NCBI GenBank assembly: GCA_021815405.1
Contig: JAKAGV010000002.1
Location: forward strand, 62,001-126,000
Source: Bacteroidota bacterium
GTDB taxonomy: Bacteria > Bacteroidota > Ignavibacteria > Ignavibacteriales > Ignavibacteriaceae
Length of the DNA: 64,000 nt
Direction of reading: 5' to 3'
The notes beneath the pieces were generated by a model that was not told the origin of the DNA, searched no databases, and worked only from the letters and a program-made list of their open reading frames with translations. The first letter of the stretch is position 1; each line of letters begins with the position of its first letter. The translations under genes were made by a program, and so were the position numbers. Positions 11,226 to 37,288 of the stretch are shown in pieces.

Positions 11226-11981
11226 TCACTTGATCAAATTATTAAAATGTTCTACCAATTCCTTCCTGCTTGCTTTTGAAATTTGCCTACCTTGAATAGG
11301 AAAGTTGGAAATATTCCTTGCCAGATGTCGAAGCTGATGGACATCGAGATTATTAATTTGCAAATCACTCAATTGTTTTTCCGAGGTAACCTCTATCATT
11401 TCACGCTCAGCTTTAGGTACAAACTTAAATGCAGCCGCCTTCTTGGATTCTTTAACTCCTAAAGCTTCTTGGCGAAGTCTTGAGATTGTATCATTTCCCT
11501 GCTCAAACAATGTTGCAACTGGTTCATTTACTTTTTTAGGTCGTTTCTCATTTTGTACTTTAACCGGTTCCAGAGCTAGTTCTTTTTCCTTTTTTATTTT
11601 TTCAGCTTCTGTGGAAATTTCCCGCTCTTTTCCTTTTTCAGCAATTTTGTTTACAGTTAATTTAGTTTGCTGAATAGGTTCTTCATTTTTTTTAACAACA
11701 TCTTGAATTGAAATTTCTGGAAGGATTTTTATAAGTTCGTCATCAGGTTTAGGAATTACGTGAATTGAAATTACTTCTCCGACTCTTTTTGCGGAAGCAG
11801 CTCCGGCATCGACAGCGGACTTTACGGCAGCAACATCGCCTAAAATTTTAACCGTAACCAGTCCTCCGCCTGTCAGTTCCTTGCCAGCAAGATGTACATT
11901 AGCAGCTTTAACCATTGCATCTGCTGCTTCTATCGCGCCAACCAAGCCTCTGGTTTCAACTAAACCCAATGCTTCCGGCAT
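11226..11981 (-). CDS. BMC-domain shell protein with long C-terminal extension
   Basis: Bacterial microcompartment shell protein of 251 residues. Residues 1-85 form one BMC (Pf00936-type) domain: [20 protein letters not shown], then [21 protein letters not shown] and [10 protein letters not shown]. This matches hexamer-forming PduA/EutM shell proteins. A highly charged Lys/Glu-rich linker follows (about 100-200). A compact C-terminal segment (about 203-251) contains [16 protein letters not shown] and ends in [13 protein letters not shown], which looks like a small SAP/Rho-N-like helical module. Fused tails of this sort suggest a cargo, cytoskeleton or nucleic-acid contact, but that is inference. 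It lies 11 bp downstream of a second, tailless BMC gene. Confidence 0.88.
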
Positions 11982-32727: not shown

Positions 32728-34872
32728 ATGAATTCAAAATTTTTCAGAAACATTCTTATTTTATTTTCCTTTTGCTTTGCATCTCTTTTGATAGCTAATG
32801 CGAAAAAAAATCTTCCCGCTGATCCAAATAGTGGTAATCAAAATCCATTCTTTGAACCAAGTTCCCTTCCATTCCATGCGATACCGTTCGACAAAATAAA
32901 AGACAGCGATTATCAGCCTGCATTTGATGAAGGAATGAAACGTCAGCTTGCGGAAATTGAAAAGATTGCAGATAACCCTGAGCCTCCGACTTTTCAAAAC
33001 ACTCTTGTAGCTCTTGAAAAAAGCGGACAAACCTTAATGCGTGTTCAATTGGCTTTTAATACTGTAAGCAGCGCAAACACTGATTCTGTTCTGCAAAAAG
33101 TCCAGCAGTATGAAGCGCCAAGGCTTGCTGCGCATAATGATGCGATCTTTCTTAATACAAAACTTTTTGAGCGAGTAAAAACAATTTATAATGAACGAAG
33201 TCACCTGAAGCTTGATCATGAATCAATGAAACTCGTTTCATATTACTATAATCAATTTGTTCATGCCGGTGCAAATCTCTCTGCTGAAGACAAAGCGAAA
33301 CTTAAAAAGTTGAATGAAGAGGAAGCAACTTTGGTTGCTCAATTCGATAACAAACTTTTAGCCGGAACAAAAGCCGGTGCTCTGGTTATTGATAATAAAT
33401 CGGAATTAGACGGACTAACTCCTGCTGAAATTGATGCCGCTGCTCAAGCTGCAGATTCCCGCGGTCTTAAAGGCAAATGGTTAATTTCTCTTCAGAATAC
33501 TACGCAGCAGCCTGATTTAAAAATCTTAAAAGATAGAAAAGTACGTAAAGAATTGTTTGAAGCTTCATGGAACCGCTGCGAACATAATGATGCTAACGAT
33601 ACTCGTTCAGTTATTGAGCAGATTGCAAAAATCCGTGCTGATAAAGCTAAGCTTTTAGGCTATCCGAATTATGCCGCCTGGGCTCTGGTAAATCAAATGG
33701 CAAAAACTCCACAGACAGTTGAAAAGTTTCTTGGCGGTCTTGTTCCTGCCACCGTTGCAAGTGAGAAGAAGGAAGCCGAAGAACTGCAGGCTATCATAAA
33801 TAAATCCGGAAAAGATTTTAAGCTTGAGCCTTGGGATTGGAGCTATTATGCAGAGAAACTCCGCAAAGCAAAATATAATTTAGATGATTCCGAAATAAAG
33901 CCTTACTTTGTTCTTGATAATGTTCTCGAGAAAGGAATTTTTTATGAAGCTCATGAGCTTTATGGATTAACATTCAAGGAGCTTCATGATATTCCGGTTT
34001 ATCAGAAAGATGTCCGCGTATTTGAAGTTTATGATAAAGAAGGTTCGCCGCTTGCTCTTTTTTATGCTGATTATTTTAAGCGCGATAATAAATCCGGCGG
34101 TGCCTGGATGGATAATATGGTTATTCAATCAAAGCTTCTCGGAACAAAGCCGGTGGTTTATAACGTCTGCAATTTCACCAAACCTGCGCCAGGTCAGCCG
34201 GCACTTTTAAGCTATGATGATGTTACAACCATGTTCCATGAATTTGGTCATGCACTTCATGGAATGTTTGCAAGCCAGGAATATCCGAGTCTTTCCGGTA
34301 CAAATGTTCCAAGGGACTTTGTTGAATTTCCATCTCAGTTCAATGAGCATTGGGCGCTTTATCCAAAGGTGCTGGAACATTACGCATTGAATTACAAAAC
34401 CGGCAAACCAATGCCTCAAAGCTTAGTTGACAAAATTAAGAAGGCAACCGTTTTCAATCAGGGATATGATTTTACAGAACTCCTCGAAGCTGCAGATCTT
34501 GATATGGCATGGCATACTTTACCGGCTAGCGCACCAATTCAGAATGCCGATAAATTTGAAGTCGCAAGTCTGCAAAAAGATCATTTGTATATTCCACAGG
34601 TTCCAACCCGTTACCGCTCAAGTTATTTTCTGCATATTTGGGGAAACGGTTATGCTGCCGGTTATTACTCTTATCTATGGACTGAAATGCTTGACGACGA
34701 TGCATTCCAGTGGTTTTTAGATCACGGTGGATTAACTCGCAAGAACGGCGACCGTTTTCGCAATATGATTCTTTCCCGCGGCGCTACAGAAGATTATAGC
34801 AAGATGTTCCGTGATTTTACCGGACACAATCCTCAACTCGGACCGATGCTGGAAAACAGAGGTCTAAAATAA
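32728..34872 (+). CDS. M3 family metallopeptidase (oligopeptidase A/Dcp-like)
   Basis: 714-residue zinc peptidase with an N-terminal signal peptide (residues 1-25, ending ANA), so it acts in the periplasm. The N-terminal helical region includes FHAIPFDKIKDSDYQPAFDEG. The active site is MFHEFGHALHGMF near residue 510 (HExxH), with the downstream glutamate in the FVEFPSQFNEHWA segment. The end HNPQLGPMLENRGL fits dipeptidyl carboxypeptidase relatives. It probably degrades short peptides during nutrient uptake. Confidence 0.93.
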   Translation: MNSKFFRNILILFSFCFASLLIANAKKNLPADPNSGNQNPFFEPSSLPFHAIPFDKIKDSDYQPAFDEGMKRQLAEIEKIADNPEPPTFQNTLVALEKSGQTLMRVQLAFNTVSSANTDSVLQKVQQYEAPRLAAHNDAIFLNTKLFERVKTIYNERSHLKLDHESMKLVSYYYNQFVHAGANLSAEDKAKLKKLNEEEATLVAQFDNKLLAGTKAGALVIDNKSELDGLTPAEIDAAAQAADSRGLKGKWLISLQNTTQQPDLKILKDRKVRKELFEASWNRCEHNDANDTRSVIEQIAKIRADKAKLLGYPNYAAWALVNQMAKTPQTVEKFLGGLVPATVASEKKEAEELQAIINKSGKDFKLEPWDWSYYAEKLRKAKYNLDDSEIKPYFVLDNVLEKGIFYEAHELYGLTFKELHDIPVYQKDVRVFEVYDKEGSPLALFYADYFKRDNKSGGAWMDNMVIQSKLLGTKPVVYNVCNFTKPAPGQPALLSYDDVTTMFHEFGHALHGMFASQEYPSLSGTNVPRDFVEFPSQFNEHWALYPKVLEHYALNYKTGKPMPQSLVDKIKKATVFNQGYDFTELLEAADLDMAWHTLPASAPIQNADKFEVASLQKDHLYIPQVPTRYRSSYFLHIWGNGYAAGYYSYLWTEMLDDDAFQWFLDHGGLTRKNGDRFRNMILSRGATEDYSKMFRDFTGHNPQLGPMLENRGLK

Positions 34873-34898
34873 TAAGTAATTAACTGATGTAATGCAAT

Positions 34899-34969
34899 TG
34901 TTATGCTGAATTTGTTTAGCATCTAAAAACAGCTTAAAAATAAGGATTCAGAAACAAGTCGGAATGACA
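34899..34969. repeat. MITE-like 71-bp element with terminal inverted repeats
   Basis: The left end TGTTATGCTGAATTTGTTT and the reverse complement of the right end (TGTCATTCCGACTTGTTT) match over most of 18 positions. A small internal hairpin (ATGCT...AGCAT) follows the left end. A similar solo end occurs at 38518-38536. It lies just after the M3 peptidase stop, the first item in the 34873-35875 gene-free stretch. Confidence 0.5.
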
Positions 34970-35045
34970 AATGAAATATTTTATTCAATTTGCATAACTT
35001 CAGTTTATTAAATAAATCGTACGAACCGGAACTAAAATAAGCGAT

Positions 35046-35087
35046 CAGAAGCCGGAGATCAGATTTAATGCTGAACTCCGACATCTG
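35046..35087. repeat. Hairpin-forming inverted repeat
   Basis: Arms CAGAAGCCGGAGATCAG (35046-35062) and CTGAACTCCGACATCTG (35071-35087) pair at 14 of 17 positions around an 8-nt loop. There is no strong U tract on either side, so a terminator role is doubtful. Similar imperfect palindromes are typical dispersed intergenic repeats. Confidence 0.5.
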
Positions 35088-35268
35088 ATTTCTAATTTTC
35101 CGCGAGATTTCCCTTCAGTGGCTTTCCTATTTTGCTAAAATTTAACTAACTATACTTACTACCAAAGTTTATTTGATCATTTTAAAAATGAACTCAATCA
35201 TTTTTCAAATTCATTTAATAACCTTAAAAATCATTTCGTCTCCTACATAAGTTTAATATATATTTTTC

Positions 35269-35335
35269 GGAGGTTGGTAATGGCTTTTTAATGTACAATA
35301 AAAAGGGCGCTAGCTTTTTTTATACTAAAAATTAA
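35269..35335 (+). other. Short leader-like segment with SD and two overlapping mini-ORFs
   Basis: A GGAGG sequence at 35269-35273 lies at good spacing before ATG 35280. That opens a three-codon ORF (MAF, stop), whose TAA overlaps a second ATG as TAATG. The second ORF has 14 codons (starting MYNKKG) and ends at 35335. The same frame then stays open into the 21-bp repeat array. It could be a chance arrangement or the remnant 5' end of a gene. Confidence 0.25.
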
Positions 35336-35399
35336 TTGGTTTTCGGAATAAGCAAAAATATAGTTGTGCAACCTTCTCGAAAAACAGTTGCTGTAGACA

Positions 35400-35827
35400 T
35401 GTTCAAGAATAATATTTATCTGTCGAAAGGAAGCAAGTTCATCCTGCAGTACTTTTTGTCATACGGAAGATATTTCCTTTACCAGTTGGATTATTCCTTA
35501 TTGAGAAGCAACATTCCTTTACCGCAAAGGAACTTCCGTTCAAAGCAAAGCAATGTTCCTTATCTGTGAAGGAACTTTGCTTTATTGCGAAGCAATATTG
35601 CTTTGACACCAAGGAACTTTCCTTTGCCTCTAACCATTAATCCTTCGGCTTTAAGCAACTTTGCTTTAAGCATAAAGTATTTTCCTTTACCCGATAGCAA
35701 CTTTTCTTATAATGTAAGAAATGATCCTTCTTCTATAAGCATCAAGGATTCGGTGGAAGGAATGATGCTTCGGCGAAAGGAAAATCCCTTCGGCGAAAGT
35801 ATTTTTAGCTTAAATTCAAAGGATTGA
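35400..35827. repeat. Diverged 21-bp tandem repeat array with palindromic units
   Basis: Fifteen consecutive 21-bp units are clear from 35507 to 35821; weaker units extend left to about 35400. The unit is roughly AGGAA-nn-TTCCTT plus an 8-nt spacer. Arms swap between AGGAA/TTCCT and AGCAA/TTGCT, so units are palindromic in themselves (AAGCAATATTGCTT, AAGGAACTTTCCTT) and also pair with neighbours (TTCCTTTACCGCAAAGGAA). The last clear units share CTTCGGCGAAAG exactly 21 bp apart. Because 21 is a multiple of three, long open frames appear (7-residue period); I do not regard them as genes. The array lies between two convergent gene ends. Function unknown. Confidence 0.8.
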
Positions 35828-35875
35828 TTGCTATGCGTAATGGATGTGTGATGAATTATCAAGCAAGGTTCGTTT

Positions 35876-37288
35876 TTAATAATCCAGTTCCTTGCCGTTG
35901 CTATGAGCACGGCTTATTATTTCCGGCGACTCCTCGAAAGCAAGTATATTTATTTTTTCCGGTTCTCGCATTAAAGTTTTTGCAATAATATAGCCTGCTA
36001 TTGACCAAGTCTGCCTGCTTCTTGCTTCCTTGCCGATTAATCTGTTGTGAATGCCGTCGTAATATTCAGGATAATTATCTGCCTGTAATTTTTCTTCTGC
36101 TATCTTTATTACCTTTTTAAAATGATCGGTGCTTTTCATCTTAACTGATGCTGCCGCAAGATACCACATTAAAACGGGCCAGCCTCCGCCATTATGATAA
36201 GACCACGCAATGTTCTTCGGATCGAAGCCCGTCAGCAGTTCCCACTCCTTTCCCTCTAGTGCCGGATAACAAATCTTGATCGGCATTTCTCCGATTAGTT
36301 CTTTTTCCTTATTAAAAATTAATTTAAGAATTGATTTGGAATGATATTCATCCGCAAGTAAATTGATTATCATAAGTAAATTACCGGCAGTAAAAAATCT
36401 GAAGTCCATCTGCGAAGGACCGAGGTTGCCAACAAAATAACCGTCGTCATCTCTAAGCCAGTTATATATCCAGCCGGGAATAGATTCCGGAAAAATATTG
36501 AATTGATTTAAGGCGTTCTCTTTATATTCTTCAATTGAAAATCGGTAAATCTTATTAATCTTTTCAAAGTCCAGCCAGTAATATTTTCTTATATGATAAA
36601 CTAATTGCCCTAATCTTTTGTCGATGTATTCCAAAAGATTTTTATTCCTGCTATTTTGAATTAGCATTTCTTTTGCGGAAAGCAAAGCTGTATAAAAGAG
36701 CGCTTGTATTTCAAGCGGATAACCATGCACGTTCATTCGCCTGTCAATCATGAAAGAGCCGTCAGGCACGAGCAGTGTCGGGAACATATCGAACCGGTTG
36801 GTAAGTGTAAGCTCGAGGATCAATTTAATCGCATTCTGAATATCTTTTCTTTTTGCAAACTCCAAATCGTTTGTCTTCTTTATATAGGCACGTAAAATAT
36901 AAATCCACCAGAAAGCCGAATCCACCGGAGTGACTCTTGCAATTGCCTTTTCGCCGTAATCTGGAATAAGTATATCTTTTCCTGAAGTTGCCGTAATCTT
37001 AAAGCTTGCAGGCATCAATCCCTTAGGAGGTAAAAAGCAATCCATGCCGTCTTCACTTCCCTGCAGTTTCAAAGTAACTTCAAGAAAGTTCTTTACTATT
37101 TTATGCTCTCCATTAAGAAGAAATGCAAATGCCGAGACCGCGAAATCTCTAATAAAAATCTGGTTGTAATTTAATTTGTTTGATGACTTATCCTCTGCCG
37201 CCAGCGTACCGATCGGCTTACCTTCAAATTCAACAATAGAATTCTGCAGAAGCTTCCAAGCTTCATCAAATAAACTGTTCTTTACCAT
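35876..37288 (-). CDS. GH100 neutral/alkaline invertase-like glycoside hydrolase
   Basis: Predicted cytosolic sucrose hydrolase, 470 residues and no signal peptide. It follows the family sequence closely: NYNQIFIRDFAVSAFAFLLN near residue 40, GMDCFLPPKGLMPASFKI near 80, then IARVTPVDSAFWWIYILRAY near 113, CMIDRR-like FMIDRRMNVHGYPLEIQALFY near 180, FRFFTAGNLLMI near 280, and WSYHNGGGWPVLMWYLAAA near 360. These motifs are those of GH100 enzymes best known from plants and cyanobacteria. No sucrose transporter is adjacent. It is convergent with the M3 gene across the repeat array. Confidence 0.88.
   Translation of the reverse strand: MVKNSLFDEAWKLLQNSIVEFEGKPIGTLAAEDKSSNKLNYNQIFIRDFAVSAFAFLLNGEHKIVKNFLEVTLKLQGSEDGMDCFLPPKGLMPASFKITATSGKDILIPDYGEKAIARVTPVDSAFWWIYILRAYIKKTNDLEFAKRKDIQNAIKLILELTLTNRFDMFPTLLVPDGSFMIDRRMNVHGYPLEIQALFYTALLSAKEMLIQNSRNKNLLEYIDKRLGQLVYHIRKYYWLDFEKINKIYRFSIEEYKENALNQFNIFPESIPGWIYNWLRDDDGYFVGNLGPSQMDFRFFTAGNLLMIINLLADEYHSKSILKLIFNKEKELIGEMPIKICYPALEGKEWELLTGFDPKNIAWSYHNGGGWPVLMWYLAAASVKMKSTDHFKKVIKIAEEKLQADNYPEYYDGIHNRLIGKEARSRQTWSIAGYIIAKTLMREPEKINILAFEESPEIISRAHSNGKELDY

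Follow-up and report, generated by a model that had tools for sequence, protein, structure and literature searches.

The window, i.e., the whole stretch of 64,000 nucleotides that was analysed, carries an array of 21-bp repeats between the 3' ends of two genes. These genes, both located outside of the repeat element, encode a peptidase of family M3 (PF01432; 32728-34872, plus strand) and a GH100 alkaline/neutral invertase (PF12899; 35876-37288, minus strand) whose 3' end points towards the tail of the element, and their convergent orientation, with ends at 34872 and 35876, respectively, is as the earlier note had described it. The core of the array (35506-35750, plus strand) was found to consist of twelve 14-bp dyads of the AAGSAA-NN-TTSCTT type separated by 7-base spacers, whereby 11 of 11 unit-to-unit steps measure 21 bp. 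Upstream of it, weak periodicity marks decayed units (35470-35505, plus strand), and downstream the sequence reads as tail-proximal units (35757-35811, plus strand) which follow each other at 20-bp steps (AAGGAATGATGCTT, AAGGAAAATCCCTT, AAGTATTTTTAGCTT) and then at a 22-bp step. The element ends in a conserved tail of ~70 bp (TTTTTAGCTTAAATTC..AAGGATT..ATGTGTGA; 35788-35858, plus strand), common to four loci of the genome from which the window derives (G000; 4.97 Mb, 31 contigs) and to loci of three congeners; the tail model match at G000:C11:97788-97858 corresponds to 35788-35858 of the window.

Over positions 35400-35827 the period-21 score amounts to 0.436 and hence lies above each of 1000 dinucleotide shuffles (mean 0.266, sd 0.011, maximum 0.300), by which the periodicity reported in the earlier note is confirmed as real. 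Among all periods from 10 to 60, 21 scored best within this span, with its double, 42, as runner-up (0.400), and a scan of the 64 kb in 408-base segments moved by 50 bases gave a top period-21 score of 0.335 outside of the array (mean of all segments 0.282, sd 0.019, those of the array counted in). The boundaries given for the feature had to be shifted, as the first ~70-100 bases after 35400 are not periodic (21-lag identity of 0.25-0.30 in 126-base stretches starting before 35427) and the element continues beyond 35827, its tail reaching to 35858. Likewise, of the at least fifteen in-phase units claimed earlier, twelve dyads are strictly in phase, counts of 14-16 being obtained when the 20- and 22-bp steps close to the tail and the weak upstream units are taken in. 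Tandem Repeats Finder reported as few as 3.1 copies (35560-35625). The strongest periodic signal of the window outside of the array, as identified in a scan of periods 12-59, is a weak 45-base periodicity at 11301-11950, possibly a coding repeat.

Four tail-bearing copies of the element were identified in G000, two of which possess AAGSAA arms and two TTRGAW arms. The second AAGSAA-type array, located on contig C7, shares 75% identity with the window array over 236-262 bases, and the tails at C11:344412 and C1:127234 accompany arrays with TTRGAW/WTCYAA arms in which the 21-bp step is retained. Next to these four tails the tail model found two each in the congeners G003, G007 and G012; in total, hits at E<=0.01 came from 7 of 59 genomes, those with the lowest scores being doubtful. 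It missed the arrays of the congener G008, the end of which holds only a short similar stretch (TTTTAGCTT). A four-dyad model covering both arm types recovered arrays at four loci of G000 and five loci of G008, as well as several loci each in G012, G007, G003 and G019, a member of another genus (11 of 40 genomes at E<=0.05, some matches being weak). More than one arm type may occur within a genome, namely AAGSAA and TTRGAW in G000 and AAGSAW, TTCGAA and CCTTAAGG in G012. A 24-base exact match to the tail, intergenic and with no visible array, was seen at L028:618-641 in a genome of another family (G028). Two further repeats accompany the TTRGAW elements: a dispersed palindromic repeat of ~85 bp (ccggtcgct..agcgaccgg) flanks the far end of both arrays (L033:1085-1200, L048) and also occurs alone in G000 (C11:343013-343099, C1:79314-79398), and a small hairpin repeat (gagatggcatctc..) is found just beyond both tails (L033:1570-1605; L034:1475-1490), with short, weak matches elsewhere in G000.

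The genomic sites of these elements vary. The M3 peptidase gene was matched in 9 of 13 genomes of the genus, and at its eight loci in congeners no array was detected by eye, by model or by period; hence, the site of the window copy is not conserved. Loci of the arsC type, collected from 11 of the 13 genomes, carry an array in 3 of 17 cases, whereby the arms are TTRGAW in G000 and the core is TTCGAA in G003 and G012, with the tail being present in all three. The tail faces the 3' end of a gene in 12 of 14 tailed elements as compared to 6 of 13 for the array side (p 0.046, with loci that are not independent). In G008, two copies are identical at 376 of 408 bases without a gap and have different flanks, the strongly similar block of ~360 bp comprising the array and a short tail. 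One of them (C128) follows a gene of the NKVSA family described below, the other (C142) is solo; the ends of the pair fit several readings for a target-site duplication, and an empty site was not found among the sequences searched.

The search for related arrays in other genomes which the earlier note had proposed was extended to 84,980 species, using two exact AAGSAW dyads 21 bp apart as query and hence covering this arm type only. It returned 21 stretches, which upon reading were classified as nine clear arrays, three partial arrays and nine isolated pairs, the clear ones residing in Bacteroidota, in a cyanobacterium (Myxacorys) and in an Acidobacteriota MAG. Per genome, Myxacorys possesses approximately seven and the Acidobacteriota MAG approximately eleven array loci, some being weak or irregular. 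Viral contigs gave no exact match to the two-unit pattern.

Comparison of units and of copies revealed which positions of the repeat are kept. Within the window array, unit-to-unit identity is 0.73 in the dyads and 0.27 in the spacers, the latter equalling the base-composition background of 0.27, and the identity profile is mirror-symmetric around the dyad axis (r 0.88). Between the window and C7 copies (161 bp, ungapped) 23 of 112 dyad positions differ, as compared to 30 of 49 spacer positions (Fisher p = 1.1e-6), and the G008 pair likewise differs at 5 of 210 versus 8 of 94 positions (p = 0.027); the TTRGAW pair shows the same direction without being significant (13/84 versus 9/35, p 0.2; 17/56 versus 9/21, p 0.42). 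Dyad identity exceeds spacer identity in 16 of 16 arrays with units picked by palindromicity and in 17 of 18 loci with units picked by motif (barely so in L196), values in which dyad identity is inflated because units were chosen by these very properties; L195 is contrary, its spacers being more conserved than its dyads. L144, L145 and L060 show little or no mirror symmetry, and the dyads of TTCGAA, CCTTAAGG and TCGCGG arrays are short or imperfect. Steps of 21 bp account for 228 of 278 cases in the 18-locus set, in the scoring of which other steps were penalised. The spacers have drifted freely, with their length mostly unchanged. Old, diverged arrays of this kind may be regarded as a natural mutagenesis experiment, documenting kept positions (dyad and helical phase) next to free ones (spacer).

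A gene family was found to accompany some of the arrays. The gene beside the G000 array at C11:344412 encodes a protein of 157 aa (MAVNKVSATLDQT...), here referred to as NKVSA, the family members of which comprise ~160 aa. No Pfam, NCBIfam or PHROG family matched them at a usable score or curated cut-off; weak Pfam matches are confined to single members (best E 1.3e-4, to Swi5, for one of ten), a single PHROG match has E 0.17, and relatives among solved structures were not found below E 0.3. A single-sequence structure model of the member at L051 was unusable (mean pLDDT 44.9). Within the genus, NKVSA matches 9 loci in 4 of 13 genomes (L235-L243), no match at E<=1e-10 being obtained in the array-bearing G007, and each of these four has its most similar copy next to an array (G000 C11, G012 C227, G008 C128 and G003 C27, the last cut to ~62 matching residues), whereby the other neighbours of these four copies appear to differ. 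Behind the distant copies (30-37% identity) period 21 recurs in units of different sequence: L242 has a clear signal and L243 none, and the weak signals of L238, L239 and L240 score 0.43-0.45, where other periods reach 0.51 in control flanks. L238 and L239 are orthologues in two species and have TGAAC/GTTCA units in common; therefore, the unit sequence may go with the NKVSA paralogue.

For ten NKVSA loci found by protein alone, i.e., the nine of the genus and a homologue on a Thiodictyon plasmid (L244:4001-4468), the flanks were scored for periods of 15-31. At 8 of the 10 loci (three being weak) period 21 came out best within 800 bp on the 3' side, and in the 5' flank it did so at none of the 10; L243 and the plasmid copy have no 3' array. 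Within 450 bp, NKVSA genes had a positive 3' flank in 7 of 10 cases, as compared to four positives among 24 control flanks taken from M3 and arsC genes (Fisher p 0.005); three of the four positive controls correspond to the known arsC arrays, and the NKVSA loci, some of which are orthologues, are not independent. Conversely, the NKVSA profile, applied to the set of collected loci, matched three that had been chosen for their arrays alone, namely L202 of Myxacorys (468-1007, E 6e-50), L191/L187 of the Acidobacteriota MAG (L191:1396-1863, E 5e-46) and L051 of a Bacteroidetes MAG (318-797, E 2e-41), and at L202, L191 and L051 the array lies 3' of the stop codon within 2 to ~250 bases. An array behind the stop codon is much commoner in the NKVSA family than expected by chance. 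At most array loci, and also at the window copy, the stretch examined around the array contains no NKVSA gene. Phages gave no NKVSA match, viral contigs no relative of the L202 protein, and among plasmids a single record was matched (Thiodictyon pTs417), a second query matching none.

Different explanations for these arrays were considered. Most likely, with a probability of about 0.52, the window array is a phased row of protein sites, i.e., one solo representative of a dispersed, non-coding array type in which 14-bp dyads in helical phase are joined to a conserved tail. Two turns of B-DNA correspond to 21 bp, and the constraint on the arms looks more like that on half-sites than like that on stems; a dimeric protein reading duplex DNA from one side of the helix would fit both the half-site arms and the two-turn step. 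The dyads would then be putative sites for a dimeric DNA-binding protein loading side by side on one helix face, with the NKVSA protein as best candidate for the dyad-binding protein or its partner. Gene-linked arrays may serve as sources and solo arrays such as the window copy may be their copies, presumably spread by some recombination or transposition route. The earlier note had offered protein-binding sites on one DNA face as one of two options, and this option provides the best fit, given that dyads are conserved, spacers are free and the step is kept, the sites as such being putative. The four places with the same tail in G000, the duplication of a whole array in a congener and the retention of dyads next to spacers at background all argue for this reading, whereas the weakness of three among the eight gene-linked signals, the two NKVSA loci without an array, the many array loci without NKVSA and the lack of arrays behind the M3 gene of congeners speak against it.

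A further-reaching idea, which is put forward tentatively and judged rather unlikely as a whole, holds that the NKVSA gene and its 3' phased array form a two-part system present in at least three phyla, in which a DNA-binding or array-maintaining protein would be encoded together with its own landing strip. The recognition sequence would turn over fast, the architecture (dyads, two turns, position behind the stop codon) would stay fixed, and solo arrays would be shed, the window copy being one of them. If true, NKVSA and its array would be a counterpart, in bacteria, to centromere or selfish satellite systems that evolve rapidly.

Second in rank, and unlikely on its own account, is a functionless satellite residing in a selfish mobile element comparable to BrickBuilt, whereby units would arise via slippage and recombination, the element would spread and nothing would bind to it. 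The dispersed copies, the duplication of an array as a whole and copies that differ by exactly one 21-bp unit are in line with this explanation, as is the patchy distribution within the class, where 3 of 245 genomes (the window's own included) were positive at E<=1e-4 under stricter filters. Moreover, two of the seven Myxacorys loci (L199:939-1446, L201:812-1244) hold their 21-bp dyad arrays inside terminal inverted repeats (AGGACTTACG..CGTAAGTCCT), resembling a MITE-like carrier. The Ignavibacterial elements differ in this respect, as a comparison of left flank and tail in 10 elements revealed no terminal inverted repeats above the maximum of their own shuffles. Neutral decay would be expected to affect dyads and spacers equally, yet only the spacers are near background, and the link to one particular gene family is left unexplained by a satellite on which nothing acts.

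The third explanation, considered improbable, is a transcribed chain of small hairpins, i.e., a non-coding RNA or 3'-UTR structure that possibly acts on the preceding gene, which corresponds to the second option of the earlier note. RNA folding of the window array is indeed better than that of shuffled sequences on both strands (z -6.0 and -5.1), arrays are located behind genes (NKVSA, and arsC at the loci mentioned), and the tails preferentially face gene 3' ends. With arrays pooled, the arms within a unit match above random dealing among units (z 3.3-3.7 for motif-chosen and 5.1 for pairing-chosen units), so that the pairing within units claimed earlier holds for the pooled arrays but not for the window array alone (p 0.14-0.16); pairing between neighbouring units, also claimed, does not exceed shuffles (pooled z -0.4 to -1.3; -0.6 to -1.3 with motif-chosen units). 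Among 12 arrays taken singly, a within-unit excess below 0.05 was obtained only for L029 (p 0.004-0.006), L067 (0.013 or 0.108, depending on the threshold) and L062 (0.175 or 0.038). A model built on 15 four-unit stretches of both arm types, which counts in favour of phased dyads as well, had 82.8% of its cells paired as compared to 65.8% after shuffling, slid registers being lower, whereby the rows of this alignment (A4, within-array covariation) are not independent because some stretches overlap.

Opposed to this stands the comparison of copies, in which compensatory double changes were found in none of four comparisons: between the window and C7 copies pairing was lost nine times and gained eight times, and the arm changes are one-sided. 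As a consequence, the within-array covariation more probably stems from common ancestry of the units, and sites read in duplex DNA are favoured over RNA hairpins. Furthermore, the favoured register possesses a 2-nt centre, which is poor for RNA, the 7-nt register shows no covariation, and exact 7-nt spacers have no reason in RNA. A search of 34800-36000 against Rfam gave 7 matches at E<=5, all far under their gathering scores.

That the array serves as operator of a local transcription regulator is very unlikely. In its favour, each of four loci of G019 (L146-L149) has five TAGGGAWWTCCCTA dyads spaced at 21-22 bp, and two of these loci lie upstream of near-identical gene starts; against this, the window copy has the 3' ends of convergent genes on both sides, and the majority of tailed copies point to the 3' end of a gene. 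Least credible is the reading that the array encodes, or once encoded, a protein of seven-residue repeats with FSLNSKD as its C-terminus, suggested by 21 bp equalling seven codons, by several arrays that are open in at least one frame (80-aa ORF in the window, 141 aa in L061, 151 aa in L145) and by a tail translating as FSLNSKD-stop in two copies and as close variants in two more, which was dropped as largely refuted because substitutions are without codon-phase skew in every copy pair (16/18/19 by phase for window versus C7, 6/6/10 and 11/7/8 for the TTRGAW pair, 4/5/4 for the G008 pair) and the conservation of the tail continues ~25 nt beyond the stop, the frame in addition being broken by 20- and 22-bp units and the open stretch of the G012 array having no ATG.

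Comparison with known systems places the phased array among described repeats. CRISPR arrays alternate near-identical repeats of ~24-40 nt with unique spacers that are about as long, and are accompanied by cas genes. They were ruled out for the element described here, which holds degenerate 14-bp dyads with 7-bp spacers and has an M3 peptidase and a GH100 gene as its two flanking genes; the earlier statement that the array is neither a CRISPR nor an IS, and not convincingly coding, was supported. Iterons and plasmid centromeres are rows of protein sites at approximately two helical turns beside the gene of the binding protein, an arrangement which an NKVSA gene with its 3' array would resemble. 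The window array differs in having no adjacent rep or par gene, and NKVSA itself matches no family at curated cut-off. REP palindromes are placed at gene 3' ends and are associated with the RAYT transposase. According to the accessible parts of their descriptions, REPs are palindromes of 20-40 bp, most of which are tagged by GTAG or CGTC (PMC3733652, PMC3116915), and REP, BIME and REPIN elements resemble the array in being small, extragenic, clustered palindromes; neither tag occurs on either strand of 35506-35750.

The earlier note knew of no named element of this type, yet at least two related kinds have been described. BrickBuilt of Porphyromonas gingivalis is, as far as its description was accessible, a 23-nt minisatellite carried by a MITE that also comprises a leader and a tail; it possesses one repeat sequence and has terminal inverted repeats similar to those known from the IS5 family, most of its sites being conserved between strains with variable repeat number (PMC4596501). 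On that description, the window-type elements resemble BrickBuilt as tandem repeats of about two turns in a dispersed intergenic element with a conserved tail, dispersed copies with a conserved end being found four times in G000 and twice each in G003, G007 and G012; they differ in their length of 21 bp, in their several arm sequences and in that terminal inverted repeats were not found.

The closest relatives are the bacterial tandem repeats of constant length and variable sequence reported by Subirana and Messeguer, which, in the accessible part of that work, measure 20-21 or 52 nt in Bacillus and 20-23 nt in many groups, their role being unexplained (PMC8161180; further papers on this class are PMC6749651 and PMC8625621). 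In the accessible text of PMC8161180, the authors point out that the helix makes two turns over 20-21 nt, and they suggest either a protein polymerising along the DNA or small RNAs. The window array shows the testable features of this class: at least four repeats with at least 60% of one length (here 12 units with 11 of 11 steps of 21) and a location outside of protein-coding genes (absence of codon-phase skew, frame-breaking 20- and 22-bp units). Further likenesses to the class, as described in the accessible text, are the length of 20-21, several families of the same length per genome, the non-coding and dispersed nature, a short kept signal and the occurrence in several phyla. Unlike these repeats, the window array keeps a 14-bp dyad with the remainder at background, is far more diverged and has a conserved tail at one end, and some arrays are tied to one gene family; in the accessible text of PMC8161180 the words palindrom- and hairpin are absent. 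The signal reported for Bacillus weihaiensis, TCGCGG, was arranged in three 21-bp units and compared with 397 genomes of a Bacillus order; it matched 25 of them, as compared to 11 of 397 for the reversed control. At most of 16 loci examined (from L206-L225) a core is conserved and the rest of each 21-bp step varies, L216 looking different; the core of these arrays is only a quasi-dyad, unlike that of the window array.

Neither the dyad-versus-spacer pattern nor a gene partner of such repeats was found in the literature searched, most of it outside subscription papers. NKVSA represents a first candidate partner for repeats hitherto called enigmatic and, if the link holds true, bacterial repeats of 20-21 nt would gain their first protein partner. 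The window array is a diverged form of already described, unexplained bacterial repeats, to which the dyad/spacer pattern and the link to NKVSA are added as new features.
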